Origin: Eggerthia catenaformis OT 569 = DSM 20559
Lineage (GTDB): Bacteria > Bacillota_I > Bacilli_A > Erysipelotrichales > Coprobacillaceae
Length of the DNA stretch: 64,000 nt
Assembly (NCBI RefSeq): GCF_000340375.1
Contig: NZ_KB446646.1
Span: 342,301 to 406,300 of the forward strand
Direction of reading: 5' to 3'
Positions 31,815-52,266 of this stretch are shown piece after piece (within the stretch, counting starts at the first letter, position 1; each line of letters opens with the position of its first letter). Made by a program: the position numbers and the translations under genes. A model generated the notes under the pieces. It was not told where the DNA came from, made no database searches, and saw only the letters and a program-made list of their open reading frames with translations.

Positions 31815-31853
31815 GGGTTAAACAATAAAAATTTAAGGGGTTGTTTTATAAAA

Positions 31854-32733: not shown

Positions 32734-33609
32734 ATGAAAGGAATTATATTAGCAGGAGGAAGCGGTACAAGATTGTATCCGCTTACAATGGTGACCAGTA
32801 AACAGTTATTACCTATTTATGATAAGCCTATGATTTATTATCCGTTAAGTATTTTAATGCTTGCCGGTATTAGAGAAATACTGATTATCAGTACGCCCAA
32901 CGATACACCAAGATTTAAAGAATTATTAGGTGACGGTCATCAGTTCGGGATTGAATTGTCTTATCAGGTACAGCCTAGTCCGGATGGTTTGGCACAGGCT
33001 TTTCTTTTAGGAGAAGAATTTATTAATGGTGACAGCTGTGCCTTGATTTTAGGAGATAATATTTTCCATGGTCATGGCATGACTAAAAGATTAAGAAATG
33101 CAGTATCAAGAAAGGATGGTGCTACTGTTTTTGGCTATTATGTAGAAGATCCGGAAAGATTTGGTATTGTTGAGTTTGATGAGAACGGAAAAGCTATTTC
33201 TATTGAAGAAAAGCCTGAACATCCTAAATCAAATTATTGTGTTACAGGATTATATTTTTATGATAAGAATGTTGTAAAATATGCTAAGATGATTAAGCCA
33301 AGCCGAAGAGGAGAATTAGAGATTACTGATTTAAATAGAATTTATCTTGAGCAAGGAAAACTTAATGTAGAAATCTTACAAAGAGGATTTACATGGCTTG
33401 ATACAGGAACACATGAATCTCTTGTGGATGCAACAAACTTTGTAAAAACTATTGAACAGCACTCACATCGTAAGATTGCCTGTCTTGAAGAGATTGCTTA
33501 TCGGAATGACTGGATTACTAAAGATGATCTTGAAAAGATGTATCAGATGTTAAAGAAGAATCAGTATGGTGCTTATTTAAAGAATATAATTGATGGAAAG
33601 ATAGCTTAA
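32734..33609 (+). CDS. rmlA: Glucose-1-phosphate thymidylyltransferase
   Basis: 291 residues, full length. [18 protein letters not shown], then [42 protein letters not shown] and [20 protein letters not shown] are textbook RmlA motifs. It makes dTDP-glucose from dTTP and glucose-1-phosphate, the entry to all dTDP-sugars in the locus. It is followed by rmlB; rmlC and rmlD, needed for rhamnose, are absent, so the pathway here leads to amino sugars instead. Confidence 0.96.
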
Positions 33610-33619: not shown

Positions 33620-34648
33620 ATGAATATAATTGTAACCGGTGGAGCAGGATTTATAGGATCAAATTTTGTTTTTCATATGTTAAAAAAATATCCTAATTAC
33701 AGAATTGTATGTGTAGATAAATTAACCTATGCAGGTAATTTATCTACATTGGAACCTGTCATGAGTAATCCGAATTTTAGATTTGTAAAGTTGGATATTT
33801 GTGATAGAGCTCGTGTTGATAAGCTTTTTGAGGAAGAACATCCGGATATGGTTGTTAATTTTGCAGCTGAATCACATGTTGACAGATCAATTGAAAATCC
33901 GGAAATTTTCTTGCAGACTAATATTATTGGAACATCTGTATTGATGGATGCCTGTAGAAAATATGGTATTCAAAGATATCATCAGGTATCAACTGATGAA
34001 GTCTATGGTGATCTTCCTTTAGATAGACCGGATCTATTCTTTACCGAAGAAACACCAATTCATACATCAAGTCCTTATTCATCTTCTAAGGCAAGTGCAG
34101 ATTTATTAGTACTTGCTTATTATCGGACTTATGGACTTCCAATTACTGTATCCAGGTGTTCTAATAACTATGGTCCCTATCATTTTCCGGAAAAACTGAT
34201 TCCTTTAATGATTGCGAATGCTCTAAATGATAAGCCTTTACCGGTTTATGGAGAAGGATTAAATGTCAGAGACTGGCTATATGTTGAAGATCATTGTAAA
34301 GCAATTGATCTGATTATTCATAAAGGAAGAGTTGGAGAAGTTTATAATGTAGGCGGACATAATGAGAAAACAAATATTGATATCGTAAGAATGATCTGTA
34401 AAGAACTTGGAAAGAGTGAAGATCTTATTACTCATGTAGAAGATAGAAAGGGTCATGATATGAGATATGCGATTGATCCGACTAAGATTCATAACGAATT
34501 AGGATGGTTGCCGGAAACAAAATTTGAAGATGGGATAAAGAAAACCATTAAGTGGTATTTAGACAATAAGAAATGGTGGAAAGATATTATTTCCGGAGAT
34601 TACCAGAATTATTATCAAGAAATGTATGGTAATAGAAAAGAAGTATAA
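33620..34648 (+). CDS. rmlB: dTDP-glucose 4,6-dehydratase
   Basis: 342 residues. NIIVTGGAGFIGSNFVFHML, VDKLTYAGNL, AAESHVDRSIENPEIF, STDEVYGDL, YSSSKASADLL (YxxxK) and CSNNYGPYHFPEKLIPLMI define RmlB. The product, dTDP-4-keto-6-deoxyglucose, is the common substrate of the C3 route (ketoisomerase plus aminotransferase at 21.2-22.7 kb) and of the C4 aminotransferase at 37338. AAGGAGA precedes the start. Confidence 0.96.
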   Translation: MNIIVTGGAGFIGSNFVFHMLKKYPNYRIVCVDKLTYAGNLSTLEPVMSNPNFRFVKLDICDRARVDKLFEEEHPDMVVNFAAESHVDRSIENPEIFLQTNIIGTSVLMDACRKYGIQRYHQVSTDEVYGDLPLDRPDLFFTEETPIHTSSPYSSSKASADLLVLAYYRTYGLPITVSRCSNNYGPYHFPEKLIPLMIANALNDKPLPVYGEGLNVRDWLYVEDHCKAIDLIIHKGRVGEVYNVGGHNEKTNIDIVRMICKELGKSEDLITHVEDRKGHDMRYAIDPTKIHNELGWLPETKFEDGIKKTIKWYLDNKKWWKDIISGDYQNYYQEMYGNRKEV

Positions 34649-34666: not shown

Positions 34667-37351
34667 ATGTTAAATAGATTACGGAAACATAAAAAGTTTA
34701 TATTTATTTATACAGTCCTCTTTCTTATTCTTTATTTTTTAGGTATTCAAATATGGTTTATGTTAAATAATAAATCATATATATGGTATTTGGATGGTTT
34801 ACAACAGCAGTATGTTTCATTTATTTATGTAGGAAAATGGTTAAGAAGTATTATTAAAAATCTATTTATTCATCATCGCTTTATTATTCCTATATGGAGT
34901 ATGTCCATGGGTTATGGCAGTGATATAATCACAACTTTAGGTGGTGTTTTTATGGATCCTTTTAATTATCTGTCTGTATTAGTGCCTACATCTTTAACTG
35001 AATTTCTTTTTAGTTTTATAGTCTTTTTTAAAATTTATCTAGCTGGGATTTCTTTTTATGCTTTTTGTGCATATAAGAAAAAAGATCAAAGATCCTCATT
35101 AGTCGGATCTCTTCTTTATTGTTTTTCTCCAGCTTTTTTAATTGTTTTCAAACAAGCAGCATTTGCGAATCTTTTTATTTATTTTCCAATGATTATGCTT
35201 GGCTGTGAGAAAGTTTGGTATGAAAAGAAAGGAACGCTCTTATTCATCTCTTTATTCTTAATGAGTGCATATTCCTTTTATTTTACTTATATGATTGTGA
35301 TTGGAATAATTATTTATTATGCAATTAAATTTTTCTTTGATAATGATGAAAAAACATGGAGAAGATTTTTTGAGTTAATATATCATTTTTCCTTTCACGG
35401 TATTTTTGGTGTTGCCTGCGGTTTATTAGCGAATTTATCTATTATTATTAATTTAGCAGCAGCCTCTAGACTCTCTATTCAGCGTATTATCCCTCTTTTC
35501 TATAATTGGGAAACAATTAAAATATACTTTACGAATTATTTTCAGATTATTGATGTAGGAGCGGACGCACTGTTGGGTTTTTCGATAGTGACATTTCTAA
35601 GTATTATGATCCTTTTCTTAAGTAAGGGTAACAAGCATTTAAAGATTAGTTTTATTTTACTTACAACAGCGTTATTTTCTAGTAAAGCAGGAAGTATTTT
35701 TAATGGCTTTAATTATGCAACTTATAGATGGAATTTTCTTTATAATTTTTTGATTATGTATATAGTGGTTGAAACATTTCCATTACTTTTAAAAATAAAC
35801 AAAAAGGATCTTTTAAAATTAGTAATAGGATTTAGTATTTATTCAATGTCTTTTTTGTTTTTAACTCATTTCAGCTTTCATAATTTCTGGATGAATCTTA
35901 TGCTTATGAGTATACTGTTCATTTTATTATTGTTTAATAGGGAAAAGCTAAATAAATATAAGAATCAATGTATTGCGGTCATATTTATTTTTTCTTTGCT
36001 TATTAATACAACAATTTATTTTAGCCCTGATAAAAATGACTTTATTAATCAAGAATTAAATAGAAATGAAGCTTTATATAAAATAAGAGCTGATGGTAAA
36101 GGACTTATTGAAAATAAGTATAAGACGAATAATATTAGGTTTGATGAGATTGGGACATCCCATTATAGAAATTCTGATATGATCACTTCTCTAAATAGCT
36201 ATAATTTTTATTTCAGTTACTATAATAATAATATAGATAATTTTCATAATTCAATGGGATATAGTTCTATTCAAGGGGCAAATTTCAATTTTAGCTATTT
36301 AGGACTCGGGTATTATGAATACTTACATCTTCTTAATGGTACAAAGTATATAATCATGCCTTCTGATTATTATAAAGCCCCCCCTTATCCCTATAACAAA
36401 TTAATGAAGCAAGAAGGTTCTTATGGAAAAAAATATAGTTTATATACTACAGATAAAAAAGTTTCTATGGCTCATTTTTATAAAGATGTGATTAGTGAAA
36501 GCGATTATGATCAGTTAGGTGAGTTTAATAGATACCAGACATTATTAAGGGCTATTAGCTTAGATAATCAGTATAAAAACTGTAATGTTAAAAAAGCTAT
36601 TGGACAATATGGTTATCTTAATTATCAATTAACTTTGGATAAGGGTATAAAAAATAATCAAAATTATTATGAAACAGAAAAGGATAATGTATCATTTCAT
36701 CTGAAAATAAACAAGATTAAAGATAAACAGATTTATTTACAAATAAATAATCTTGATTTTTTATCAAATAACAGTGATTGGTATGGGGTAACTATAGAAG
36801 CTTATCATCAAAATAAAAAGATTAATACGATGATGTATAATCTTTATAGTCAAACGCTAAAATCTCATTTATATGCTAATAAGCATAATTGGCTTATTAA
36901 TTTAGGATATGCCGACAAGAATGTAGATGATATTAAAATTACATTATCTCATAAGGGAAAGTATAAGATTTCCAATATCTCTTTATACACAAAAACACGC
37001 CGGCAAATAGCGAATGATATAAGCCATTTAGATAGTGAAAATATTGATTTTGAATATAATACAAATAAAATAGATATTCTTACAAATAAAAATGAAGCCG
37101 GTTATCTTTATATAGCAGTTCCGTATTCTAAAAACTGGGAAGCAAAAGTTGATGGAATTAAAAGTGAAGTCTTAAAAGCAAATAAAGCTTTCATGGCTAT
37201 TAAGTTATCTAAAGGAAAACATAAAATTCAATTAACTTACAAGCAAAAAAATGTTTTAATTGGTATAAGTGGGATGTTTCTTGTATTATGTTTCTATACA
37301 GTATTAAATTTTATCTTTAAAAGGAGAAGGGTTAATTATGATATCATTTAA
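34667..37351 (+). CDS. YfhO family membrane protein, copy 1 (GT-C type)
   Basis: 894 residues: about 13 membrane segments, then a large extracytoplasmic domain of about 400 residues and a final membrane segment. YfhO signature WYLDGLQQQYVSFIYVGKWL after the first segment, and GYGSDIITTLGG, are clear. In Bacillus and Listeria, YfhO proteins work with an undecaprenyl-phosphate glycosyltransferase (CsbB/GtlA-like) and a flippase to glycosylate lipoteichoic or wall teichoic acid outside the cell. The paralogue at 43329-45983 is similar throughout. Here the partner could be the GT2 at 38477 and the flippase pair at 42.6-43.3 kb. It overlaps the next gene by 14 bases. Confidence 0.83.
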   Translation: MLNRLRKHKKFIFIYTVLFLILYFLGIQIWFMLNNKSYIWYLDGLQQQYVSFIYVGKWLRSIIKNLFIHHRFIIPIWSMSMGYGSDIITTLGGVFMDPFNYLSVLVPTSLTEFLFSFIVFFKIYLAGISFYAFCAYKKKDQRSSLVGSLLYCFSPAFLIVFKQAAFANLFIYFPMIMLGCEKVWYEKKGTLLFISLFLMSAYSFYFTYMIVIGIIIYYAIKFFFDNDEKTWRRFFELIYHFSFHGIFGVACGLLANLSIIINLAAASRLSIQRIIPLFYNWETIKIYFTNYFQIIDVGADALLGFSIVTFLSIMILFLSKGNKHLKISFILLTTALFSSKAGSIFNGFNYATYRWNFLYNFLIMYIVVETFPLLLKINKKDLLKLVIGFSIYSMSFLFLTHFSFHNFWMNLMLMSILFILLLFNREKLNKYKNQCIAVIFIFSLLINTTIYFSPDKNDFINQELNRNEALYKIRADGKGLIENKYKTNNIRFDEIGTSHYRNSDMITSLNSYNFYFSYYNNNIDNFHNSMGYSSIQGANFNFSYLGLGYYEYLHLLNGTKYIIMPSDYYKAPPYPYNKLMKQEGSYGKKYSLYTTDKKVSMAHFYKDVISESDYDQLGEFNRYQTLLRAISLDNQYKNCNVKKAIGQYGYLNYQLTLDKGIKNNQNYYETEKDNVSFHLKINKIKDKQIYLQINNLDFLSNNSDWYGVTIEAYHQNKKINTMMYNLYSQTLKSHLYANKHNWLINLGYADKNVDDIKITLSHKGKYKISNISLYTKTRRQIANDISHLDSENIDFEYNTNKIDILTNKNEAGYLYIAVPYSKNWEAKVDGIKSEVLKANKAFMAIKLSKGKHKIQLTYKQKNVLIGISGMFLVLCFYTVLNFIFKRRRVNYDII

Positions 37352-38468
37352 CATACCGCCATGTACCGGCGATGAAATAAAATATGTTAAGGAAGCTATT
37401 GATGCTCATAAGATATGTGGGGATGGCATGTTTACAAAGAAATGTAATCAATGGCTGGAGGAGAGATTCAATGCACAAAAAGTGCTTTTAACGACTAGTG
37501 GAACAACAGCTTTAGATATGGCGGCTATTCTTTGTGAATTTAATGAAGGTGATGAAGTTATTCTTCCGAGCTTCACTTTTTCCAGTACAGCAACTTCAGC
37601 AGTGCTGGGAGGAGCTAAGCTGGTATTTGTTGATATTAGACCAGATACAATGAATATTGATGAAACAAAGATAGAATCGGCTATTACTGATCAGACAAAG
37701 GCTATTATTGTGGTTCATTATGCGGGAGTTCCCTGTGAAATGGATACTATTATGGATATAGCTGAAAAATATAATCTTATTGTGATTGAGGATGCAGCTC
37801 AAGGTGTTATGAGCAGTTATAAAGGAAAACCGTTAGGAACTATTGGTGATTTTGGATGTTATTCATTCCATGAAACTAAGAATTATTCAATGGGTGAGGG
37901 CGGAGCTATTGTTGTTAATAATCCGAAATATAATGATAGAGCAGAGATTATTAGAGAAAAGGGAACAAACAGATCTCGTTTCTTAAGAGGTCAGATAGAT
38001 AAATATACTTGGGTAGACTTTGGAGATAGTTTTTTGCCTAGTGAATTAAATGCTGCTTATTTATGGGGACAGCTGATTCATGCTGATGAGATTAATAATG
38101 ACAGATTAGCGACATGGAATGCTTATTATGATGCTTTTAAGCCATTAGAAGAGGAAGGATTATGTGAACTTCCTGTTATTCCTAATGGATGTATTCATAA
38201 TGCTCATATGTTTTATCTTAAGTTAAAAGACTTAAAGCAGAGAACAGAGTTTATTCAATATTTAAAGGAACATAATGTATTAAGTGTATTCCATTATATT
38301 CCATTACATTCAGCACCTGCCGGGCTTAAGTTTGGAAGATTTCATGGAGTAGATGAATATACAACTAAAGATAGTAACAGACTGACAAGATTACCTCTTT
38401 ATTATGGTATGACTAAAGAAGACAGAGAGACAGTGATTCAAACTGTTAGAGAGTTTTTTAAGAAGTAG
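37338..38468 (+). CDS. dTDP-4-amino-4,6-dideoxygalactose transaminase (WecE/RffA-like)
   Basis: 376 residues. ISFNIPPCTGDEIKYVKEAI, HKICGDGMFTKKCNQWLE, LLTTSGTTALDMAA, LPSFTFSSTATSAVL, VVHYAGVPCEMDTI, EDAAQGVMSSYKGKPLG and SFHETKNYSMGEGGA (PLP lysine) follow WecE/RffA almost block by block. It aminates C4 of dTDP-4-keto-6-deoxyglucose to give a dTDP-4-amino-6-deoxy sugar, competing with the C3 route encoded at 21.2 kb. The preceding YfhO gene overlaps it; AAAAGGAG lies inside that gene. Confidence 0.9.
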   Translation: MISFNIPPCTGDEIKYVKEAIDAHKICGDGMFTKKCNQWLEERFNAQKVLLTTSGTTALDMAAILCEFNEGDEVILPSFTFSSTATSAVLGGAKLVFVDIRPDTMNIDETKIESAITDQTKAIIVVHYAGVPCEMDTIMDIAEKYNLIVIEDAAQGVMSSYKGKPLGTIGDFGCYSFHETKNYSMGEGGAIVVNNPKYNDRAEIIREKGTNRSRFLRGQIDKYTWVDFGDSFLPSELNAAYLWGQLIHADEINNDRLATWNAYYDAFKPLEEEGLCELPVIPNGCIHNAHMFYLKLKDLKQRTEFIQYLKEHNVLSVFHYIPLHSAPAGLKFGRFHGVDEYTTKDSNRLTRLPLYYGMTKEDRETVIQTVREFFKK

Positions 38469-38476
38469 GTGATAGT

Positions 38477-39409
38477 ATGGAAATATCGGTTGTTATTCCG
38501 GTATATGGATGCAGAGCAGCATTATTTGAATTGCATAAAAGATTAGTCTCATCTCTTTCTACAATAACTGATAGTTTTGAGATTATCCTTGTAGATGATA
38601 ATTGTCCACAAAATTCATGGGAAGATATTGAAACAATATGTCATAGAGATCATAGAGTTGTAGGTATTCATTTATCAAGAAACTTTGGTCAGATTAAAGC
38701 TATCACAGCAGGACTTGATCATGCTAAGGGTGAATGGGTTGTAGTTATGGATTGTGATTTACAGGATAGACCGGAGGCTATTATAGATTTATACGATAAG
38801 GCTCAGGAAGGCTTTGATGTAGTATTTGGAAGACGTATTGATAGAAAGGACACGGCTATTACGAAGTTTCTTTCCCGTTCATTCTATAAAGTTTATGATT
38901 ATTTTACTGAAGGGAATTTTGACAGCACTATTTGTAATTTTAGTATTTCAAAAAGAAAAGTTATTAATTACTATAGTCAGATGCGTGAACAAAATAGAGC
39001 ATATACTTTATTTATTAAATGGCTAGGTTTTAAACAGGCAGCGATTGATTTACAAGCGGATGAAAGATTTGCAGGAAAAAGTTCATACAATTTAAAAAGA
39101 AAATTAACAATGGCATTTGAATTTATCACTTCACAGTCAAATAAACCTTTACGTTTTTCAATTAAGACCGGGTTTATGATGGCTTTAGTTTCTTTTGTGT
39201 ACATCTTGTATTTGATTATTAAGGCTAGTTTAGGTGGAGTCATTATCGGCTGGACAACAATTGTAGCATCTATTTATTTAATGGGTGGACTGTTATTAGT
39301 TTCTATTGGTATTATGGGGATTTATGTAGGTAATATATTTAACGAAACAAAAAACAGACCACTTTATGCAATATCAGAAATATTAAATGAAGAAAGAAGG
39401 GAGAAATAA
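38477..39409 (+). CDS. Undecaprenyl-phosphate glycosyltransferase, ArnC/GtrB-like GT2
   Basis: 310 residues: GT2 domain (EISVVIPVYGCRAALFELHK, EIILVDDNCPQNSWEDI, HLSRNFGQIKAITAGLDHAK, VVMDCDLQDRPEAI) followed by two membrane helices at about residues 230-290 and a cytoplasmic tail. This is the ArnC/GtrB/CsbB layout, enzymes that place one sugar on undecaprenyl phosphate. The gene follows the C4 aminotransferase, as arnC sits with arnB, so the sugar may be the 4-amino-6-deoxyhexose. AGGTGAT precedes the start. Confidence 0.86.
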   Translation: MEISVVIPVYGCRAALFELHKRLVSSLSTITDSFEIILVDDNCPQNSWEDIETICHRDHRVVGIHLSRNFGQIKAITAGLDHAKGEWVVVMDCDLQDRPEAIIDLYDKAQEGFDVVFGRRIDRKDTAITKFLSRSFYKVYDYFTEGNFDSTICNFSISKRKVINYYSQMREQNRAYTLFIKWLGFKQAAIDLQADERFAGKSSYNLKRKLTMAFEFITSQSNKPLRFSIKTGFMMALVSFVYILYLIIKASLGGVIIGWTTIVASIYLMGGLLLVSIGIMGIYVGNIFNETKNRPLYAISEILNEERREK

Positions 39410-39410
39410 G

Positions 39411-40409
39411 ATGATTTTAGTTATTGGGGCAACTGGATATATAGGAAGATATTTATGTCCGTATTTAAAAGGTAAAGGATACGATATATTAGCTTTAGGA
39501 AGATCAGAGAAAGGTAAGAAATTTCTTGAAAAAAGGAATATTAAGTTTAAATACTTTGATTTAGATAATGATAAAGCTTTTGACGGTATTGACGCATCTA
39601 AAGTAGAAGCTATTATTGATTTGTCAGCTTGTTTAGCTGAACTAGAGACACCTGTTCAGAAGTTTTTTGATGTTAATACATTAGGTGTATACAAAACATT
39701 GGAATACGCTAGAAATAATGGAATTAAGAAAGTAGTTATTACATCTTCTCATAAAGTGTATAATGATGTTTATAAGGATATTATTTCTGAAGAAGATCCG
39801 ATATCATTTACAGGAGATCATTCGCCTTATATTATTTCTAAGATTGCTGCTGAAAACTTTATAACATACTATAATAAAGATTTTAAAATGAATGCTGTTG
39901 CATTAAGGCTGACAGGTGTACATGGATATGGAGAAATATTGGGAAGCTTAAAGACAGATGGATCATATAAAAAGAGCAGTTTTGAAATATTTTTTGAAAA
40001 AGCTATTAAAGGTGAATCTATAGAGATATGGGGAGATCAATCTATAAAAAGAGATCATGTTTATATTAAAGATGTTTTAAAAGCAATTGAAGCTGCTGTT
40101 AATGTAAAAGAGGCAAAAGGTATCTATAATATTGCCTCAGGAGTAGGATACTCACAATATGAAGAAGCTCTAGCTTTGGCTAAAGTGTTTGCAGAAGATA
40201 AAGTTTCTCAAGTAATTTTAGTTCCTGAAAAAAAGGGTCTTCCTAGAGGTTATGTTTATAGTATTGAAAAGGCAAAAAAAGAGCTTCATTGGGAACCTCA
40301 ATATGCTGATTTAGAAGATATGTTGACTGATTATAAAAAAGAATGGATATCAAAAGAATATCATAATTTTCATCAGTTTAAAGAAGAAGATAAGCCACTA
40401 ACATTATGA
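39411..40409 (+). CDS. NAD-dependent epimerase/dehydratase (SDR)
   Basis: 332 residues from ATG 39411 (AAGAAGGGAG upstream). MILVIGATGYIGRYLCPYLK is the nucleotide-binding loop, ITSSHKVYNDVY holds the Ser position, and SPYIISKIAAENF the YxxxK pair. GDQSIKRDHVYIKDVLKAIE is typical of sugar-nucleotide 4-epimerases and reductases. Its place between the ArnC-like transferase and a DegT-like gene suggests that it modifies the amino-sugar precursor. It overlaps the next gene by four bases. Confidence 0.8.
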   Translation: MILVIGATGYIGRYLCPYLKGKGYDILALGRSEKGKKFLEKRNIKFKYFDLDNDKAFDGIDASKVEAIIDLSACLAELETPVQKFFDVNTLGVYKTLEYARNNGIKKVVITSSHKVYNDVYKDIISEEDPISFTGDHSPYIISKIAAENFITYYNKDFKMNAVALRLTGVHGYGEILGSLKTDGSYKKSSFEIFFEKAIKGESIEIWGDQSIKRDHVYIKDVLKAIEAAVNVKEAKGIYNIASGVGYSQYEEALALAKVFAEDKVSQVILVPEKKGLPRGYVYSIEKAKKELHWEPQYADLEDMLTDYKKEWISKEYHNFHQFKEEDKPLTL

Positions 40410-41443
40410 TAGATATATTAAATATTAAAAAGAATCATTTGTTTATAAGCAGAGCTGCTACAGGAATATATTTAATATTAAGGTATCAAAATATAGAGAA
40501 TAAAAAAATACTTATTCCTGGAAATATTTGTTATGCTGCTGTTTATCCGATTATTTATAGCAGTAATATACCGGTATTTTGCGATACAGATAATTTAGGA
40601 AATGTAAGTTATGATATTTTTATAAGTAGTATTAAAGAATGTAAGGCAGCTATCATTCCTCATATGTATGGAAATCCCAATCAGGATATAATTAGGATTG
40701 CAGAATATTGTAAAAAACATCATATATTACTTATTGAAGATTGTGCTTCTTCAATGGGAGCAGTACTAGATCATAAATTTTGTGGTACTTGGGGAGATTA
40801 TAGTTTATTTAGTACAGGATATTCAAAGACAATAGATTTAGGATATGGAGGAATTATTGTTTCTAATAATGATTTATCATCTATAGATCAGGCATATAAA
40901 AGCCTTCCGGTTAAAAATGCTGAGACTGATGTTAATGATGCTTTCTTCTCAAAATTATATAGACTTATAAGAAATAATAAAAACCAGTCTATATCACCTT
41001 TTATATGGGCAGGATTAAGAAATAATTTAAAGAACATTTATATACACTATACAGATTTAAAAGATTATCAGGTTAAATTATCTAAGCAATTAATATCTCT
41101 TCAGGAGAATATAGATGAAAGGATTAGAAAAGCACATCTTTATCGGTCAGCTATTCATATTAATGAGAATATAAAACATTATTCATTTAATAAAGGTGCT
41201 GTTCCATGGAGATATATTTTATTTGTTAATCCACATTTCAAATATAATTTTATTAATTATTTACTTAAAAATAATGTTCCGGTAAGTGACTGGTATCCTA
41301 ATGTTACAGAAATTTTTGGAAATAAGATTTCTTTATTAAATATAGATTTAATAGAATGTTCTATTATTAATTTACCGATTACTATTGAAGATAGTGAGAT
41401 TATAAGAATTATAAATATTATCAATAAGTATAAGTTTATATAG
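40406..41443 (+). CDS. DegT/DnrJ/EryC1-like PLP aminotransferase (divergent)
   Basis: 345 residues. The PLP fold is recognisable from FISRAATGIYLIL, KKILIPGNICYAAVYPII, AAIIPHMYGNPNQDI, LLIEDCASSMGAVLD and FSTGYSKTIDLGYGG with the lysine that binds PLP. Its N-terminus is shorter and the sequence far more divergent than the two sugar aminotransferases at 21623 and 37338, so the substrate could differ. The composition is slightly more A+T-rich than its neighbours. The start overlaps the SDR stop (ATGA), which argues for a joint function. Confidence 0.75.
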   Translation: MIDILNIKKNHLFISRAATGIYLILRYQNIENKKILIPGNICYAAVYPIIYSSNIPVFCDTDNLGNVSYDIFISSIKECKAAIIPHMYGNPNQDIIRIAEYCKKHHILLIEDCASSMGAVLDHKFCGTWGDYSLFSTGYSKTIDLGYGGIIVSNNDLSSIDQAYKSLPVKNAETDVNDAFFSKLYRLIRNNKNQSISPFIWAGLRNNLKNIYIHYTDLKDYQVKLSKQLISLQENIDERIRKAHLYRSAIHINENIKHYSFNKGAVPWRYILFVNPHFKYNFINYLLKNNVPVSDWYPNVTEIFGNKISLLNIDLIECSIINLPITIEDSEIIRIINIINKYKFI

Positions 41444-41452
41444 GGGGATAAT

Positions 41453-42595
41453 ATGAAAAAACTGGCAATTATAGGAGCATCCTATCTACAGCTTCCATTA
41501 ATTAAGAAAGCAAAAGAAATGAAATTGGAAACCCATGTTTTTGCTTGGGCAGCTAATGATGTAGGAGAAAAAGAAGCCGATTATTTTTATCCGATCAGTA
41601 TTATAGAGAAAGAAAAAATATTAAAGAAATGTCAGGAAATAAGTATTGATGGTATCTGTACTATTGCTTCTGATTTGGCAGTTATTACGGTTAATTATGT
41701 TGCCTCTGTAATGAATTTGCCGGGTAACAGTATGGAATGTACAGAGCTTTCTACTAATAAGCATTTAATGAGACAGGCATTCTTTTTAAATCATGATCCT
41801 TCTCCTAAGAGTTTATTGGCAGCAGGCATTGATGATTTAAAAGATATATCATTAGATTATCCGGTTATCGTAAAACCGATAGATAGATCAGGAAGCAGAG
41901 GCATTACGAAGCTGGAGTCTTCAGAAGGATTAAAAGAAGCGATTGAAGATGCTAAAAAACAAGGCTTTGATAAGCATGTCTTAGTAGAGGAATATGTATC
42001 AGGACAGGAATATAGTATTGAATGTATTTCCAATAATGGAAAGCATCATTTTCTAGCTGCTACTAAGAAATATACAACCGGAACACCTCATTTTATTGAA
42101 ACCGGACATCTTGAACCTGCACCATTAAGTGATGAGCTGCTAGAGAAAATAAAGAATAGTGTATTTCATGCTTTAGATTCATTAAAAATTAAAAATGGTG
42201 CTTCTCATAGTGAGCTCAAGATATCTGATACAGGAGATATTAAGATTATTGAAATAGGTGGCAGAATGGGAGGAGACTTTATTGGCAGTACACTTGTAGC
42301 TTCTTCCACCGGCATTGACTTTGTAAGAGGGGTTATTGATATTGCTTTAGGAAATCCGATTGATTTAAAGCCTATGTACACCGGCTGTCCAACAGGAATT
42401 AGATTTATTTTTACTGATCAGGATCTTAAAGTATTAGAAGAGTTAAAGAAAGATGATCATATTGTTTTAGTAGATAGTGAAGTACATATTATCAAAGAAG
42501 GAACTGTCACAGACAGTTCTACCAGATTTGGATATTATATATTTAAGGCAAAGAGAATAGAAGATTTAGAGAAGTATCTTCCTAAAGGAGAATGA
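41453..42595 (+). CDS. ATP-grasp ligase
   Basis: 380 residues. N-terminal Rossmann-like part (KKLAIIGASYLQLPLIKKA), then the ATP-grasp fold: YPVIVKPIDRSGSRGITKLE (ATP-binding lysine and Gly-rich loop), LVEEYVSGQEYSIECIS and the metal site IKIIEIGGRMGGDF. This arrangement is that of the PurK/BtrJ/carbamoyl-phosphate-synthase-like group, which joins a carboxylate to an amine or to another acceptor with ATP. In an amino-sugar context, attaching an amino acid to the sugar amine is an attractive guess. It is directly followed by the two small flippase-like genes. GGGGGAT precedes the start. Confidence 0.82.
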   Translation: MKKLAIIGASYLQLPLIKKAKEMKLETHVFAWAANDVGEKEADYFYPISIIEKEKILKKCQEISIDGICTIASDLAVITVNYVASVMNLPGNSMECTELSTNKHLMRQAFFLNHDPSPKSLLAAGIDDLKDISLDYPVIVKPIDRSGSRGITKLESSEGLKEAIEDAKKQGFDKHVLVEEYVSGQEYSIECISNNGKHHFLAATKKYTTGTPHFIETGHLEPAPLSDELLEKIKNSVFHALDSLKIKNGASHSELKISDTGDIKIIEIGGRMGGDFIGSTLVASSTGIDFVRGVIDIALGNPIDLKPMYTGCPTGIRFIFTDQDLKVLEELKKDDHIVLVDSEVHIIKEGTVTDSSTRFGYYIFKAKRIEDLEKYLPKGE

Positions 42596-42597
42596 TA

Positions 42598-42960
42598 ATG
42601 AATAAATCAACAGTTAAAACTTTAATCTTATTACATTTGATGCTGATGATTTATTCATTAAGCGGAATATGTTCAAAAATGGCTTCTAAGCAGACGTTTT
42701 TAAGTATCCCTTTTATTCTTTATTATGGAGCTATTATTCTTCTTTTAGGCTTTTATGCAATAGGATGGCAGCAGATTATTAAAAGACTGCCTCTTACTAC
42801 AGCTTTCTCCAATAAAGCTGTTACGGTTGTATGGGGATTAGTATGGGGAGTTTTATTCTTTCATGAATCTATTACATTAGGTAAGATTATAGGGATTATA
42901 CTTATTATCAGCGGTATAGTTATTTTTGCTTCATCAGATCAGGAGGAAACAAATGAATAG
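42598..42960 (+). CDS. Small EamA/SMR-like membrane protein, flippase subunit 1 (ArnE-like)
   Basis: 120 residues with four membrane segments, half the size of a normal EamA transporter. The end GVLFFHESITLGKIIGIILI then ISGIVIFAS is the typical EamA/ArnE tail. ATG 42598 is preferred to ATG 42592 because GGAG lies eight bases upstream. In E. coli the ArnE/ArnF heterodimer flips undecaprenyl-phosphate-aminoarabinose. This gene overlaps its partner (42953) by eight bases, so a heterodimer is likely. It lacks the Glu in the first segment found in multidrug SMR pumps, which speaks against drug export. Confidence 0.78.
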   Translation: MNKSTVKTLILLHLMLMIYSLSGICSKMASKQTFLSIPFILYYGAIILLLGFYAIGWQQIIKRLPLTTAFSNKAVTVVWGLVWGVLFFHESITLGKIIGIILIISGIVIFASSDQEETNE

Positions 42961-43306
42961 TACAGTTATTTTTTATTCATGTTTTCTTTTGTTAGGCGTA
43001 TTTGTAAGTGCTATTTCTCAGGTTATGTTAAAAAAAGCATCACAAAAGAATTATGATAGTTTTATTCAGGAATATACTAACCCATTAGTATTCTTTGCTT
43101 ATGTATTATTTGTAGGGACTACCTTTTTATCAATCTTGGCTTATAAAGGCATTCCTTTATCAATGGGGCCGGTATTAGAAGCAACAAGCTATATTTATGT
43201 AACATTCTTTGGTGTTAAAATATTTCATGAAAAGATTAATAAACAAAGAATAATAGCATTAGTATTGATTATTTCAGGAATCATTGTTTTCTCATTATTA
43301 GGATAG
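42953..43306 (+). CDS. Small EamA/SMR-like membrane protein, flippase subunit 2 (ArnF-like)
   Basis: 117 residues, four membrane segments. VFVSAISQVMLKKASQK at the N-terminus corresponds to the SQVLLKxA start of ArnF/SMR proteins; LEATSYIYVTFFGVKIFHEK and LIISGIIVFSLLG close it. The start at 42953 follows AGGAGGAAAC exactly and lies within the end of the subunit 1 gene. Together with subunit 1 it probably forms a flippase for the undecaprenyl-phosphate sugar made by the ArnC-like enzymes, feeding the YfhO protein encoded next. Confidence 0.78.
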   Translation: MNSTVIFYSCFLLLGVFVSAISQVMLKKASQKNYDSFIQEYTNPLVFFAYVLFVGTTFLSILAYKGIPLSMGPVLEATSYIYVTFFGVKIFHEKINKQRIIALVLIISGIIVFSLLG

Positions 43307-43328
43307 TATAAACAGAAAGGAGCATTTT

Positions 43329-45983
43329 ATGTTAAAAATAATAAAGAAACATAAAAAATTTCTTTTTATATATACTTTAATTTTTTTAATACTATTTCTA
43401 TTAAATATTCAATTCTGGTTTATAAAATATAATAAATCATTTATATGGAAATATGATGGTCTGGAACAGCAGTTTACAGGTTTTATCTATGTAGGAAAAT
43501 GGATAAGAACAGTATTCTCAAATATTTTTATTCATCATCAGTTTACTATTCCTTTATGGGATCTGTCTATTGGATATGGCAGTGATGTCATGTCAACACT
43601 CTGTGATTACTTCTATGATCCATTTAATTATTTATCGGCATTTATATCACCATTATATGCTGAATATCTTTTTGATTTTTTAATAGTATTAAGATTATAT
43701 TTGACAGGTCTTTCTTTCTATGCTTTTTGTTTTTATAAGAAACATAGCTATAAAGCATCATTATTAGGATCTGTTTTATATGTCTTTGCTCCGGCAGTCA
43801 TGATTGTATTCAAACAGCCAAATTTTATTAACTTATTTATATATTTTCCACTTATCATGCTAGGATGTGAAAAATTATGGTATGAAAAGAAAGGAACTTT
43901 ATTATTTATTAGTTTTCTTTTAACAACAATCTATAATTTTTATTTTTCATATATGATTTCTATAATGATTGTTGTCTATGCAGTTATTAACTTTATATTT
44001 ATAGAAAAAGAGAAAACAGGAAAAAGATTTATAGAGCTTTTTAGACAGTTTAGCTATCATTGTGGCTTAAGTGTTAGTGCAGGACTGGTATTATATCTTC
44101 CTGTTATTATGAATTTAATGAATACCAGCAGATTATCTTATCAAAGAAAATTATTTTTCTTCTTTCGATTTGATAAGATACAGACTTATTTCACCTATTA
44201 TTTCTTATCTTATGATACAGGAACAGATGCTATCTTGGGATTTTCTATTCTTACATTAGTAAGTATTATGGTATTAATGCTAAGAAAAGGCTATAAAGAT
44301 CTTAAACTATATTATATCTTACTTACAGTCAGTCTTTTTTCAGCACAGATCAGCAGTTTATTTAATGGCTTTAATTATCCGGCTTATCGTTGGAATTTTG
44401 CTTATCAGTTTTTAATATCTTATATTATGGTTGTAACATTTAATAAACTGTTTGAATTAAGTAAGAAAGAAATTCTTATCATTATTTCTTTTTTTACAGG
44501 ATATCTTATCTTATTCTCTCAAACTAAAAATTATCAGTTTAATGTCTTTCTTTATCATTATAGAGTAGTATTCTCAATACTATTCATTTTATGTATAAGT
44601 CTTTTCTTTATCGTGACACTAATTAAAAAAATTCCAAAGACTCTTAAAGAGAATCTTATTATTATGTTGTTTTCATTATCTACAGTTATTAATTCAACAG
44701 TTTGCTTTAGTGCTAGAATGTCTTCACTGGTAACAAAAGAAGTTAATAGAGGAAAAGCATTTTCTCTTTTGACAGAAAGCAAAAAGATTCTTCATGAGAT
44801 TAAAGATAAGAAAGATTACCGATATGATGAAATAGGTACAAATAGATATAGAAATGCCGGTATGATAGAATCTCTAAACAGTTATGATTTCTATTATAGC
44901 TATTATAATGAGAATATTGATCATTTTCATAAATCTATCGGATTAACTAACAGTTCGTTTAGTTTTACATATGCCGGATTAGGATATCTCTCTTACCTTC
45001 ACTTATTAAATGGAACAAAGTATATTATTACTCCATCTGATTATAAGAAGATGAACCCTTATCCTTATAACAGACTGATCAGAAAAGAAAAGAACTATCA
45101 TCTTTATCAGTCATCAATAGATACATCAATAGCTCATTTCTTTACTCATAATATCAATGAGCAGGATTATGATTTATTCAATGAATTTGAAAGATATCAG
45201 ATATTGACTCGGGCAATTGTATCTAAAGAAAAGAGTGATTATCAAAAAACTCAAAAGAATTATGAACAAATGAATTATCAGACTCTATTTAATAACAGTT
45301 CTTCTTATAAAGATTCTATTTATAAGGCGAACTGGGATAATGCTTCTGTTGATTTCAAGTTTAAAGAGATTAGGAATCGGACTCTTTATCTTCAGATAAA
45401 GGATCTTGATGTGATATCAGAATGGATACAGTCATATAGAATTAAAATAGAAGGATATTATCGGGGCAAGAAAATTGATAATATCAATGAGTATATTGAT
45501 TCACAAACAATTCGTTCAAATCTTTATGGTCATAAGCATAATTGGCTTATGAGTCTTGGTATGATGACAGGTATTGATACAATACGTATTATTTTTCCTT
45601 ATAGGGCTCAATATAAGATATCTTCCTTAAATCTTTATACAAAATCAAAGGAACAGACAAATAAAGATATCAGTCATCTGGATTGTACAAATATTGATTT
45701 TCACTATGATACAAATAGGCTTAGTATTCATACAAATAAAGATCAGGATGGCTATTTATATGTGGCAGTACCATATGATAAGAATTGGCAAGCCTTTATA
45801 GATGGTAAGAAAACTGACATATTAAAAGCAAATAAAGCTTTTATGGCAGTGAAATTACCGAAGGGCAGACATACTATATTATTTAAATATCATCAGAAAG
45901 AATTATTTATTGCTTTCTTTGGTTCAATAGGTATAGTGTGTTTATATGTGATATTAAATAGAATGACAGGAAAAAGGAATTAG
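43329..45983 (+). CDS. YfhO family membrane protein, copy 2 (GT-C type)
   Basis: 884 residues, paralogue of the protein at 34667 from end to end: WKYDGLEQQFTGFIYVGKWI, GYGSDVMSTLCDYFYDPFNY, and in the external domain YEYLHLLNGTKYII-like text (LSYLHLLNGTKYIITPSDY) and VAVPYDKNWQAFIDG. About 13 N-terminal membrane segments, a large outer domain and one C-terminal segment. Expected to transfer a sugar from undecaprenyl phosphate to a surface polymer. It sits directly after the flippase pair and before an ArnC-like GT2, a complete three-part set. AAAGGAG precedes the start. Confidence 0.83.
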   Translation: MLKIIKKHKKFLFIYTLIFLILFLLNIQFWFIKYNKSFIWKYDGLEQQFTGFIYVGKWIRTVFSNIFIHHQFTIPLWDLSIGYGSDVMSTLCDYFYDPFNYLSAFISPLYAEYLFDFLIVLRLYLTGLSFYAFCFYKKHSYKASLLGSVLYVFAPAVMIVFKQPNFINLFIYFPLIMLGCEKLWYEKKGTLLFISFLLTTIYNFYFSYMISIMIVVYAVINFIFIEKEKTGKRFIELFRQFSYHCGLSVSAGLVLYLPVIMNLMNTSRLSYQRKLFFFFRFDKIQTYFTYYFLSYDTGTDAILGFSILTLVSIMVLMLRKGYKDLKLYYILLTVSLFSAQISSLFNGFNYPAYRWNFAYQFLISYIMVVTFNKLFELSKKEILIIISFFTGYLILFSQTKNYQFNVFLYHYRVVFSILFILCISLFFIVTLIKKIPKTLKENLIIMLFSLSTVINSTVCFSARMSSLVTKEVNRGKAFSLLTESKKILHEIKDKKDYRYDEIGTNRYRNAGMIESLNSYDFYYSYYNENIDHFHKSIGLTNSSFSFTYAGLGYLSYLHLLNGTKYIITPSDYKKMNPYPYNRLIRKEKNYHLYQSSIDTSIAHFFTHNINEQDYDLFNEFERYQILTRAIVSKEKSDYQKTQKNYEQMNYQTLFNNSSSYKDSIYKANWDNASVDFKFKEIRNRTLYLQIKDLDVISEWIQSYRIKIEGYYRGKKIDNINEYIDSQTIRSNLYGHKHNWLMSLGMMTGIDTIRIIFPYRAQYKISSLNLYTKSKEQTNKDISHLDCTNIDFHYDTNRLSIHTNKDQDGYLYVAVPYDKNWQAFIDGKKTDILKANKAFMAVKLPKGRHTILFKYHQKELFIAFFGSIGIVCLYVILNRMTGKRN

Positions 45984-45987
45984 AGGT

Positions 45988-46947
45988 ATGGATGGCGAGA
46001 AAATAAGTTTTATTATTCCTTGTTATGGGGGAGAAGAAAGTATAAAAGAAGTGATTAATGAAATAGATCAGGTTATCTCTATGTCATCATATGACTATGA
46101 AGTAATAGCTGTTAATGATTGTTCACCGGATCATGAATGGGATATGATTCAACAGGCAGCTCAGAAAAATCATCATGTGACCGGTATTAATCTTTCAAAA
46201 AATGGTGGCAAGGATAATGCGATTATATGTGGTATGAGCTATGTAAAAGGAGACTATATAGTCATTATTGATGATGATTTACAGTGTCCTGTAGATCATC
46301 TTTTTGAACTGATGGAACCTCTTATAAATGAGAATTATGATGTATCAATCGCAAAATATAAAGAAAAGAAAGAAAGCAAATTTAAGCGTTTCGGTTCTAA
46401 AGTTAATGATATGATGGTTAATCTTTTTTTGCAGAAAGATAAAAATCTTGTTTTATCTAACTTTGTAGTGATGAAAGCCTATATCAAAGATGAGATCCTT
46501 CATTATAAGAACCCTTATACTTATTTGGATGGATTATTAATCAGAAGCACAAGATATATTAAGAATGTATTATTAGAAGAAAGAGAAAGACCTTATGGTA
46601 AAGGGAATTTCACTTTCTATAAATCTTTTCAGATGTGGATTAATGGCTTAACTTCATTTTCAGTCAAGCCATTAAGATTTACAACAATACTGGGATTTAT
46701 CTTTGCTTTTATAGGGGCTATTTTGGTTTTATATACTGTTTTTAGAAAGATTTTTATTGGTGGAGTAGAGATAGGATTTAGTTCATTATTCTCTATTAAT
46801 CTGATTATTGGCGGTATTATTATGATTATGTTAGGTATAATCGGAGAATATATTGGAAGAATATATATCTGTTTAAATAATTCACCTCAGTATGTTGTTA
46901 AGGAAGTTATTAAAAAGGAGAAATCTCAAAGTGAAGATATTTCATAA
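45988..46947 (+). CDS. Undecaprenyl-phosphate glycosyltransferase 2, ArnC/GtrB-like GT2
   Basis: 319 residues with the same layout as the protein at 38477: GT2 domain (ISFIIPCYGGEESIKEVINE, VIAVNDCSPDHEWDMI, INLSKNGGKDNAIICGMSYV, VIIDDDLQCPVDHLFEL) and two membrane helices at about residues 235-295. The DDDLQ motif is the DxD metal site of this family. The two copies clearly differ, so they may load different sugars. AGAGGT precedes the start; the next gene starts inside this one. Confidence 0.86.
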   Translation: MDGEKISFIIPCYGGEESIKEVINEIDQVISMSSYDYEVIAVNDCSPDHEWDMIQQAAQKNHHVTGINLSKNGGKDNAIICGMSYVKGDYIVIIDDDLQCPVDHLFELMEPLINENYDVSIAKYKEKKESKFKRFGSKVNDMMVNLFLQKDKNLVLSNFVVMKAYIKDEILHYKNPYTYLDGLLIRSTRYIKNVLLEERERPYGKGNFTFYKSFQMWINGLTSFSVKPLRFTTILGFIFAFIGAILVLYTVFRKIFIGGVEIGFSSLFSINLIIGGIIMIMLGIIGEYIGRIYICLNNSPQYVVKEVIKKEKSQSEDIS

Positions 46948-48592
46948 AATAGAAAAGAAATATTTTATCATTTTGGGTATATGTGTAGTATTCTTTTTAG
47001 GTTATCTCTTACTGGGTAGAATATTTTATGAAGAAAATGATGACTTTGCTTTGAATCTTATTGCGAACGGAACATATACACCACATAGTGAATATTTAGT
47101 TTTTAATAATATTATCTATGGTTATATTTTGAAAATTCTTTATAAGATTACAGGACGTGTGAATTGGTATTTATTTGTAATGCTTTTTATGAATTTTGTT
47201 TCTATTACTCTGTTATGCTTAATGGTTTCTAAGAAAACTATTCTTCCAATATCAATCGGATTAACAGTATTTATAAATATCTTATTGGACTATGATTTTT
47301 ATAATTGTCTTCAGTTTACTAAGAATGCTGCCTTATATAGTATGATTGGCTTCTTAATTCTTTATTTTGTAATGATTGAAGATATATCTAAGAAAATGAT
47401 ACCAATAGGTATAATACTCATGATATTAGGTGCGTTAGTTCGTTTTGATAGTTTTAAAGCGGTTCTTCCGTTTGGATTATGTTTACTCATTGTTGAAATG
47501 TTTGGGAGTCCTATTAAAAAATATTTAAAAAAGCTAATACCTCTAGGTATATCATTATTAATGATATTCAGTTTTCAAATGTTTCATGAATATTTTTATA
47601 ATTCTCAACCGGAATGGAATTATGCTCTTCAATATAATCATCAAAGAAGCTTACTGTTAGATTATGGAGTACCTCCTTATGAAGAGAATAAAAAGCTATA
47701 TAAAAGCCTTGATATTGAGTTACTTGATTTAAATATGCTTAAAAGCTGGGCATATTCAGACTTTGATAAATTTACTCTTAAACGATTAGAAATGATTAAT
47801 AATAATAAGAAAGCGGTTAGTTATGATTTAAGTCTTATTACTAAAAGTTTTTCTAATATTTATGCTGCTATTAGAAATCATTTATTACCGGCAATGTGGC
47901 TGATCGGCTTATTAGTTTTATTATTTTTGGATACAAAATCCTGCTTTTTATACCTGCTTTTAAGTGGTGTTATATGTGCAGAATATATACTATTAAGTTC
48001 CGTTAATAGAGTAATATGGCGTGTTGTCTATATGATTTGGTTATCTTTTTTTATAATTTTTTATCCTTTTATTTTGAATAGATATTCTAAAAAAATAAAT
48101 GATCTCTCTTTTGATAAAACTTATAAAAAATATGTTTATTATGTAATCATTCTTTGTTTGCTAGTAAGTAATGGATTAAATCTGCTGTCAAATACTTTTA
48201 ATGATAAAGATTTGGGTAAAGATTATTTTTTATTTTTTCATAATATCAAACAACAAAAAGATAAGGTTTATGTTGCTGATGCACTTACATTTGGTTGTAT
48301 AGCTCCGGCAACTAAGATATACAGAATTAATAGGCGGTATAAAGATGTTTATAGAAATACTCTTTTTTTAGGGGGATGGTCTGTACCTTCACCGCTTAAT
48401 AATAGAATAGATAAGAGTATTTTAAAAAATCCTGTCAAATCATTAATAAAATCAGATGTTTATTTTGCTTGTAACAGTGGCAGTAAAGATACAATATTGA
48501 AATACCTGCAAAAAGAATACAGTAAAAAGGTTAAAATAAAATATATAGAAACAATAGAAAATATTCAAATCTGGAAATATTATATTGACTAA
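46931..48592 (+). CDS. Polytopic membrane protein, probable GT-C glycosyltransferase
   Basis: 553 residues from GTG 46931. This start is chosen because AAAAGGAG lies ten bases upstream and a Lys-rich N-terminus then a membrane segment follow; a longer frame from 46892 lies inside the previous gene. About 11-12 membrane segments. After the first one comes FYEENDDFALNLIANG, an acidic loop in the position of the catalytic Asp of GT-C enzymes, then HSEYLVFNNIIYGYILKILY. The C-terminal part is a soluble domain (YVADALTFGCIAPA). I do not recognise a named family. Overlap with the ArnC-like gene suggests that it uses that lipid-linked sugar. It is the last gene of the locus. Confidence 0.65.
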   Translation: MKIFHKIEKKYFIILGICVVFFLGYLLLGRIFYEENDDFALNLIANGTYTPHSEYLVFNNIIYGYILKILYKITGRVNWYLFVMLFMNFVSITLLCLMVSKKTILPISIGLTVFINILLDYDFYNCLQFTKNAALYSMIGFLILYFVMIEDISKKMIPIGIILMILGALVRFDSFKAVLPFGLCLLIVEMFGSPIKKYLKKLIPLGISLLMIFSFQMFHEYFYNSQPEWNYALQYNHQRSLLLDYGVPPYEENKKLYKSLDIELLDLNMLKSWAYSDFDKFTLKRLEMINNNKKAVSYDLSLITKSFSNIYAAIRNHLLPAMWLIGLLVLLFLDTKSCFLYLLLSGVICAEYILLSSVNRVIWRVVYMIWLSFFIIFYPFILNRYSKKINDLSFDKTYKKYVYYVIILCLLVSNGLNLLSNTFNDKDLGKDYFLFFHNIKQQKDKVYVADALTFGCIAPATKIYRINRRYKDVYRNTLFLGGWSVPSPLNNRIDKSILKNPVKSLIKSDVYFACNSGSKDTILKYLQKEYSKKVKIKYIETIENIQIWKYYID

Positions 48593-48596: not shown

Positions 48597-48623
48597 AAAA
48601 GAAGATCATTATGATCTTCTTTT
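48597..48623. terminator. Bidirectional terminator between convergent genes
   Basis: AAAAGAAGATCA/TGATCTTCTTTT, 12-bp stem with a three-base loop, flanked by A and T runs on both sides. It ends the glycopolymer locus on the plus strand and the choline-binding LRR gene on the minus strand. Confidence 0.82.
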
Positions 48624-49629: not shown

Positions 49630-49663
49630 TTATTTTATTACCTCCTAGAAAATTTTCTTTGAT

Positions 49664-49692
49664 ATTCTAACAAATAATACTTATTAATGCAA
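49664..49692 (-). promoter_or_regulatory. Promoter of the choline-binding LRR gene
   Basis: Minus strand TTGCAT (49692-49687), 17 bases, TAGAAT (49669-49664), with TG in the extended -10 position. It lies 35 bases upstream of the ATG. Confidence 0.65.
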
Positions 49693-49730
49693 TAGAAATG
49701 ATTAAATATAAAATGAAGATAATAAGTTTG

Positions 49731-49759
49731 TTGATTTTATTAAGATATATGGGTATAAT
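49731..49759 (+). promoter_or_regulatory. Promoter of the choline (lic) operon
   Basis: TTGATT (49731-49736), 17 bases, TATAAT (49754-49759), 28 bases before the ATG. It is divergent from the LRR gene promoter, 38 bases away, so a single regulator could act on both. The HTH domain of the first operon protein is a candidate. Confidence 0.68.
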
Positions 49760-49787
49760 GTTCATATAAATAAGGAAGTGAAATATA

Positions 49788-52264: not shown

Positions 52265-52266
52265 TT

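Follow-up and report, generated by a model that had tools for sequence, protein, structure and literature searches.

In Escherichia coli and Salmonella, the Arn (L-Ara4N) pathway comprises ArnB, formylation by ArnA, ArnC, ArnD, ArnEF and ArnT. The synthesis of dTDP-Fuc4N by WecE is also a step of the enterobacterial common antigen branch. Within the SMR family, the drug, guanidinium and polyamine pumps require a central glutamate in TM1, and opposite charge biases are expected of the two members of a heterodimeric antiparallel flippase pair. For CsbB/GtcA/YfhO-type multi-component systems, the consulted passages of one review name GtrA- or Wzx-type flippases and mention neither an SMR pair nor an amino-sugar donor of the kind considered here (PMC8035078). 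A three-component system for ribofuranose side chains uses a lipid-phosphate sugar, the ArnE-like ORF14 and GT-C transfer to the polysaccharide (PMC11127046). Predicted ATP-grasp aminoacyl ligases, such as CA_C2189 of Clostridium acetobutylicum, are described in surface-polysaccharide clusters (PMC4000134).

Gene run and predicted sugar donor

The window of Eggerthia catenaformis DNA (the whole stretch that was analysed, 64,000 nucleotides) contains a single co-directional run with overlapping genes on the + strand, extending from rfbA at 32734 to a hairpin at 48597:

32734..33609, +, rfbA, glucose-1-phosphate thymidylyltransferase (TIGR01207, 496 bits, cut-off 361)
33620..34648, +, rfbB, dTDP-glucose 4,6-dehydratase (TIGR01181, 501 bits, cut-off 365)
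34667..37351, +, YfhO1, GT-C-type membrane transferase (PF09586, 266 bits; 14-nt overlap with wecE)
37338..38468, +, wecE, dTDP-4-dehydro-6-deoxyglucose transaminase (TIGR02379, 627 bits, cut-off 435)
38477..39409, +, GT2a, ArnC/GtrB/PgfS-type polyprenyl-phosphate sugar synthase (family matches)
39411..40409, +, SDR, GalE-like, YxxxK retained (PF01370, 151 bits)
40406..41443, +, DegT2, divergent sugar aminotransferase, catalytic Lys retained (PF01041, 83 bits)
41453..42595, +, core ATP-grasp, predicted amino-acid ligase for the 4-amino group (PF13535; nearest solved relative BL00235)
42592..42960, +, SMRa, first half of the split SMR flippase (EamA/ArnE-like; no central Glu; positive charge bias)
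42953..43306, +, SMRb, second half of the split SMR flippase (EamA/SMR-type; 8-nt overlap with SMRa; ATG start at 42953 behind its own Shine-Dalgarno, AGGAGG)
43329..45983, +, YfhO2, second YfhO-type GT-C transferase (PF09586, 296 bits)
45988..46947, +, GT2b, second ArnC-type polyprenyl-phosphate sugar synthase (ArnC model, 154 bits)
46931..48592, +, GTC566, GT-C-fold membrane protein with an Asp-Asp motif in the first outer loop (probable GTG start at 46931, AAGGAG ahead; fold matches)
48597..48623, +, terminator-like hairpin with a 12-bp stem, right-hand end of the unit

A sequence-only reading had described an amino-sugar decoration system at 37338-48592. ORF and family searches recovered every gene that it had listed there, in the order given, and placed the start of the unit further upstream, since rfbA and rfbB, both outside that interval, and a second YfhO gene belong to the same run. 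The grouping is real and not a product of chance, because the same genes occur together in dozens of other genomes; a chance neighbourhood was ruled out by the locus counts and the genome-wide co-occurrence with WecE given below.

RfbA and RfbB would produce dTDP-4-keto-6-deoxyglucose, which WecE would aminate to dTDP-Fuc4N. These steps are established for the families and are predicted here by homology. The WecE protein shares 61% identity with that of E. coli along its entire length, retains SFHETKN with the catalytic Lys motif SFHETK, and scores far above the cut-off of the curated model. In six further loci DegT2 again has an SDR beside it, and the SDR of the window is 60-69% identical to these. 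In DegT2, K141 is invariant in 7 of 7 sequences, and the predicted fold (pLDDT 84) matches WlaRG, QdtB, ArnB and WecE; a dead or non-sugar enzyme is thus unsupported, and DegT2 is predicted to be an intact but divergent sugar aminotransferase. Together, the SDR and DegT2 may be an exchangeable module, either for additional tailoring of Fuc4N or for the supply of another amino sugar.

The predicted core ATP-grasp ligase

The nearest solved relative of the ATP-grasp protein is the L-amino-acid ligase BL00235 (3vot, E = 2.6e-41), whose metal-binding block HxE...IExGxRxGG is retained. The family is sharply bounded, with members at 392-689 bits and the next ATP-grasps at no more than 292 bits. Homologues were found with an alignment query of genome contigs (a single-sequence query gave none), and genes in the homologous loci were called family-first. 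At least 80 loci were obtained. WecE lay within 10 kb of the ATP-grasp in 69 of 80 and was its immediate neighbour in 31, and an ArnC-like GT2 and the SMR pair lay within the same 10 kb in 54 and 53, respectively; about one third of the loci, some of them on broken-off contigs, had no SMR pair within that distance. Across 250 Lachnospiraceae genomes, WecE was present in 18 of the 20 that carry the ATP-grasp compared with 63 of the 230 others (P = 3.9e-8). Conservation of the ATP-grasp gene with the block in relatives, which the sequence-only reading had set as a test of itself, was therefore observed.

At one locus (L061), RfbB and the ATP-grasp are fused as a single ORF, and in Blautia the ATP-grasp is fused to a D-cysteine-desulfhydrase/ACC-deaminase-like PLP domain. 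At other loci, WbqC or GNAT acyltransferases occupy the ATP-grasp slot. At yet another (L042), an SbnB-like enzyme adjoins the ligases. The earlier proposal that the ATP-grasp amidates the amino sugar keeps its modifying role, but N-aminoacylation of Fuc4N is likelier than amidation in view of the relationship to BL00235 and of the fusion to an amino-acid PLP enzyme. We infer that the ATP-grasp would ligate an amino acid, via an acyl phosphate, to the 4-amino group of the Fuc4N made by WecE. Alternatively, it could make a free dipeptide or another metabolite and have become a neighbour of these genes through island shuffling, as free-standing L-amino-acid ligases do make dipeptides and further ATP-grasps are present in 27 of the 80 loci. 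We regard this as improbable, given that the single RfbB-ATP-grasp ORF, the frequency with which wecE is the immediate neighbour and the genome-wide co-occurrence with WecE all argue for a shared pathway.

The putative split flippase and the proposed lipid-linked route

All 108 homologues, 54 each of SMRa and SMRb, lack glutamate at the column of EmrE E14, and the best reference for the small pair was ArnE. The pair thus stands apart from the drug SMR pumps, the other comparison on which the sequence-only reading had been made to depend. The Arg/Lys bias averaged +3.5 for SMRa and -7.1 for SMRb, with opposite signs in 51 of 54 pairs; the window pair has +1 and -6. With the ArnE model, SMRa and SMRb reached 31 and 29 bits, below the equivalog cut-off of 92, and by sequence they are a subtype related to ArnE rather than ArnE orthologues. 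For SMRb, the EbrA and MdtJ scores come close to the ArnE score, as might be expected if the pair were a drug, polyamine or guanidinium pump lying in the cluster by accident. Given the missing glutamate and the genome-wide link to WecE, such an accident seems very improbable. Strong sequence evidence instead suggests that SMRa and SMRb would form an antiparallel heterodimer of the ArnE/ArnF kind that flips a lipid-linked sugar.

In the 250 Lachnospiraceae genomes the SMR family and WecE co-occurred (55/66, P = 2.5e-24), and they lay within 20 kb of each other in 30 cases. Some SMR pairs accompany WecE at loci that lack the core ATP-grasp and carry WbqC genes, GNAT genes or ATP-grasps of another kind. 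A strict dependence of the pair on the core ATP-grasp was accordingly rejected, and these loci indicate that the flippase is not restricted to one acyl group. The suggestion that an ArnEF-like pair replaces GtcA is valid within the locus but not genome-wide, as one GtrA-family gene, the sole GtrA match in the genome, is retained outside the locus on contig C2.

The window also encodes an initiating sugar transferase (4791), other glycosyltransferases, two Wzx-like proteins read from the sequence (18580 and 29473), and QdtA/B for a second amino sugar. The Wzx-like proteins count against a lipid-phosphate route, since they would allow incorporation of the sugar into a repeat unit. On the strength of these genes, the amino sugar might be built into a Wzx/Wzy-type polymer while the lipid-phosphate GT2s, the SMR pair and the GT-C proteins decorate with a different sugar. 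This arrangement is unlikely in view of the genome-wide association of the SMR family with WecE and of the position of SMRa, which overlaps the ATP-grasp gene in this locus and adjoins it in others.

For the lipid-phosphate route that we favour, both GT2a and GT2b have the layout of lipid-carrier GT2s with C-terminal membrane segments. GT2a, the only GT2 of this kind in the same-order cassette of L069, probably loads the Fuc4N-derived sugar onto the lipid, and from its family would move aminoacyl-Fuc4N to undecaprenyl phosphate. GT2b is 29% identical to E. coli ArnC. GT-C-fold transferases with an acidic outer-loop motif are represented by both YfhO proteins and GTC566 (fold and DD motif). All top PDB fold matches of GTC566 are GT-C enzymes, including ArnT with undecaprenyl phosphate, and D50/D51, R184, R252, D257 and R373 are conserved (numbered from the longer ORF start at 46892). 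YfhO had been named as the transferase; its gene also lies directly 5′ of wecE in L026 and L069 and adjoins it in L147 and L154, but it is one of several GT-C proteins that relatives use, alongside DUF2142 and GTC566-like proteins. We suggest that transfer of the sugar to a polymer of the wall or surface takes place outside the cell and is carried out by a GT-C enzyme, most likely YfhO1 or YfhO2, and that GT2b and GTC566 are probably a second decoration arm. The pairing is uncertain, because the locus has two GT2s and three GT-C-type proteins but a single flippase pair.

The same donor chemistry could instead serve a surface protein, as in Pgf-like protein O-glycosylation. A GT2 with two YfhO-type proteins resembles PgfS, PgfM1 and PgfM2 of Streptococcus mutans; the best NCBIfam match of GT2a is PgfS (ArnC also matched), and the C-terminus of YfhO2 weakly matches PgfM2. 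Both scores nevertheless fall well under the curated cut-offs (223 versus 500 bits for PgfS and 42 versus 1500 bits for PgfM2), and the surroundings in the window are polysaccharide and choline-phosphate genes, not adhesin genes. We therefore doubt a protein acceptor.

Proposed pathway and its relation to described systems

Overall, we consider it moderately likely, from the sequence comparisons, that the locus encodes a lipid-carried, Arn-like amino-sugar decoration pathway, with aminoacylation of Fuc4N where the Arn pathway has formylation and with extracytoplasmic transfer; the amino acid, acceptor and transfer enzyme are putative. The main proposal of the sequence-only reading is thus supported by the comparative tests, with its amidation, GtcA and YfhO points adjusted. 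The core recurs, reshuffled, in many other gut bacteria. More tentatively, undecaprenyl-phosphate-linked N-aminoacyl or peptidyl 4-amino-6-deoxy sugars may be widespread in gut Firmicutes and in some Saccharibacteria and spirochaetes, with a fixed core of WecE, ATP-grasp, GT2 and split SMR flippase, around which exchangeable cassettes for making amino acids or for further ligation would diversify the surface group between strains. If the pathway of this locus is as proposed, it would bring Arn-like flipping to Gram-positive gut bacteria and assign a role to orphan SMR pairs and to a large ATP-grasp family that has no name. Aminoacylated Fuc4N should then be detectable by mass spectrometry on the surface of the culturable Longicatena caecimuris or Blautia schinkii, and such caps would be expected to affect phage adsorption, antimicrobial-peptide resistance and immune recognition of commensals.

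A literature search, in which subscription journals were little covered, found no description of this gene combination, and the locus would be a previously undescribed form of multi-component transmembrane glycosylation. For the CA_C2189 cluster (PMC4000134), too, ATP-grasp ligases are proposed to attach amino acids or peptides to amino sugars, but it is a nonulosonic-acid cluster, with neither WecE nor an SMR pair in the consulted part of its gene table. The ribofuranose system (PMC11127046) has in common a lipid-phosphate sugar, a small ArnE-like flippase and GT-C transfer, but differs in its sugar chemistry, its single small flippase and its lack of an amino sugar or ligase. With the enterobacterial common antigen branch (RffG/RffH/WecE/RffC), the locus shares WecE-made dTDP-Fuc4N; there, Fuc4N is acetylated by RffC and built into an Und-PP repeat unit, whereas here an ATP-grasp takes the place of the acylating enzyme. 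CsbB/GtcA/YfhO-type systems likewise combine a lipid-carrier GT2, a small flippase and a YfhO-type GT-C protein, whereas this locus has a split SMR pair and predicted aminoacylation, and no GtrA/GtcA-type flippase within it. Neither the ArnA formyltransferase/decarboxylase nor the ArnD deformylase was seen among the window ORFs, by reading, or among the domains of the ten locus proteins searched. Compared with the Arn pathway, the locus has in common a C4 aminotransferase, predicted N-acylation of the 4-amino group, an ArnC-type GT2, a split SMR flippase without the central Glu and a GT-C transferase; it differs in acting on a dTDP-6-deoxyhexose (Fuc4N) rather than a UDP-pentose, in having a predicted amino-acid ligase in place of the formyltransferase with its temporary formyl group, and in using YfhO or GTC566 in place of ArnT in a Gram-positive-type host.

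Extent and surroundings of the gene run

The genes placed at 37338-48592 by the sequence-only reading, which had proposed an amino-sugar glycan-decoration system there, are real and lie on one strand, with overlaps or gaps of a few bases between them. The extent given to the unit was too short, since rfbA, rfbB and a YfhO gene (YfhO1) precede wecE without a break; in a family model search, rfbA and rfbB each score above the curated cut-off. A terminator-like hairpin (48597-48623) marks the right end. The gene for the second subunit of the predicted split SMR-type flippase, SMRb, starts at ATG 42953 with AGGAGG ahead of it, and the last gene, encoding GTC566, probably starts at GTG 46931. The window spans positions 342301-406300 on contig C1 (genome size 1.94 Mb), and the G+C content of the cassette (0.28-0.30) is near that of the remainder of the window.

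A choline-phosphate set adjoins the run (48625-53790 and 54842-56497) and, judged from its genes, suggests a surface decorated with phosphocholine:
choline-binding-repeat LRR protein
winged-HTH/nucleotidyltransferase/choline-kinase fusion, LicC-LicA-like
second LicC-like gene
BCCT-type transporter, identified by reading the sequence
GH25-like protein with cell-wall-binding repeats, after the choline genes, read from sequence

Four LicD-like proteins, recognized by motif, lie in one surface-polysaccharide region (9643-11328 and 30969-32732). In the same region, a GT2, a DUF2304-like small protein and a QdtA/QdtB-like pair (20122-22723) would form a second, 3-amino sugar pathway. A HisC-like aminotransferase, a cytidylyltransferase-Gfo/Idh oxidoreductase fusion and an IspD-family gene stand in a row at 11347-14479, where a CDP-activated precursor is possible. 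Two DUF6077-like large membrane proteins of ~645 aa (16624-18570 and 22754-24685) are possibly further GT-C enzymes.

The likely amino sugar and its putative ligase

WecE scores 627 bits against a curated cut-off of 435 and is an orthologue of E. coli WecE (61% identity); with RfbA and RfbB adjoining, its product is likely dTDP-Fuc4N. Active sites are intact: the second DegT-like enzyme, DegT2, keeps its catalytic lysine and has a predicted fold resembling nucleotide-sugar aminotransferases, and the ATP-grasp enzyme, whose nearest solved structure is the L-amino-acid ligase BL00235, keeps the metal-binding block of that protein. The SDR and DegT2 pair recurs in six further loci (L030, L049, L059, L068, L069 and L078), and its carriers are dispersed across the ATP-grasp tree.

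The window ATP-grasp (41453-42595) groups with that of a spirochaete, Treponema ruminis (L100; 58% identity, support 96/94), and not with those of Firmicutes from the same order as its host, a placement that may point to horizontal exchange. Gene fusions connect the ATP-grasp with other enzymes. In a MAG filed as Saccharibacteria (0.8-Mb genome), RfbB (dTDP-glucose 4,6-dehydratase) and ATP-grasp share a single ORF (L061, 8996-11149), and in Blautia and its kin (e.g. L098:9905-12115) one protein combines the ATP-grasp with a PLP fold-type II domain belonging to the D-cysteine-desulfhydrase/ACC-deaminase group. A relative of SbnB, an enzyme serving diaminopropionate synthesis, stands beside the ligases of L042. 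A second ATP-grasp occurs in 27 of 80 loci. Loci L014-L016 carry two or three each, a ketopantoate-reductase-like gene (L014 and L016), and an NDP-hexose 2,3-dehydratase and Gfo/Idh ketoreductase upstream of wecE; the latter two suggest a 2-deoxy variant of the sugar, and the whole set looks like a peptidyl 2,4,6-trideoxy amino-sugar variant.

Linkage across genomes and the putative split flippase

Of 60 relatives, four, belonging to two families, encode the ATP-grasp (48-52% identity), and all four have WecE adjoining and an SMR pair near. Searching genome contigs with an alignment query gave 244 encoding stretches, 80 of which were retained as loci; these are not independent, some being near copies, and L024, L025 and L052 are the same loci as L014, L015 and L016, relatives used in building the query. 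The survey bore out the expectation that the ATP-grasp is kept with the block: within 10 kb, WecE was present in 69 of the 80 loci, the SMR pair in 53, both in 48 and an ArnC-like GT2 in 54, several loci without these neighbours being truncated contigs. The pair always comprised two genes with ≤60 bp between them. In a less biased sample of 250 Lachnospiraceae genomes, WecE accompanied the ATP-grasp in 18 of 20 genomes, versus 63 of the 230 others (P = 3.9e-8), and the SMR family in 55 of 66 (P = 2.5e-24), both P values being inflated by shared ancestry; 30 SMR-WecE pairs lay within 20 kb. At WecE-SMR loci lacking the core ATP-grasp, the neighbours include WbqC, GNAT acetyltransferases or further ATP-grasp proteins, of which one carries the C-terminal domain of L-amino-acid ligases. 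Overall, the sugar/flippase core is constant and the N-acylation slot varies.

The glutamate of EmrE, Gdx and MdtIJ is absent from all 54 SMRa and all 54 SMRb sequences. According to a review of the SMR family, this residue is frequently missing from lipid SMRs, and paired subunits carry opposite Arg/Lys biases (PMC9574504). Here, the mean bias is +3.5 for SMRa and -7.1 for SMRb, with opposite signs in 51 of 54 pairs. ArnE is the top-scoring E. coli reference for both subunits; orthology with ArnE was rejected, at ~30 bits versus 92 required.

Putative mechanism and known systems

We propose that the ATP-grasp enzyme would aminoacylate the 4-amino group of the sugar, GT2a would load it, SMRa/b would flip it, and YfhO or GTC566 would transfer it. 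The cassette would allow more than one pairing of its two GT2s and three GT-C proteins with the single flippase. Both GT2s are of the ArnC/PgfS type; GT2a is favoured over GT2b because a GT2a-type enzyme is the sole GT2 of the same-order cassette in Pseudobutyrivibrio UBA1225 (L069). YfhO1 is favoured because YfhO lies immediately 5′ of wecE in L069 and L026. YfhO is not universal, and relatives carry DUF2142 or GTC566-like proteins. A Pfam search with GTC566 gave no match. Its predicted structure (pLDDT 78, pTM 0.81) has confident PDB fold matches to GT-C enzymes only, including ArnT with undecaprenyl phosphate; with E-values of ~1e-3 and TM-scores of ~0.4, the model shows the GT-C class, not orthology. 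For a second decoration arm, the flippase may be a GtrA protein encoded outside this locus in the same genome.

No published description of this gene combination was found in a literature search that was thin on subscription journals. ArnE-like small flippases are already known in polysaccharide decoration (PMC11127046), and ATP-grasp aminoacyl ligases in surface-polysaccharide clusters have been proposed (PMC4000134). The locus would work like the Arn (L-Ara4N) pathway, yet it is no member, as the ArnA and ArnD steps are absent and the sugar differs. Multi-component transmembrane glycosylation, as defined in PMC8035078, fits this locus in all but the flippase class.
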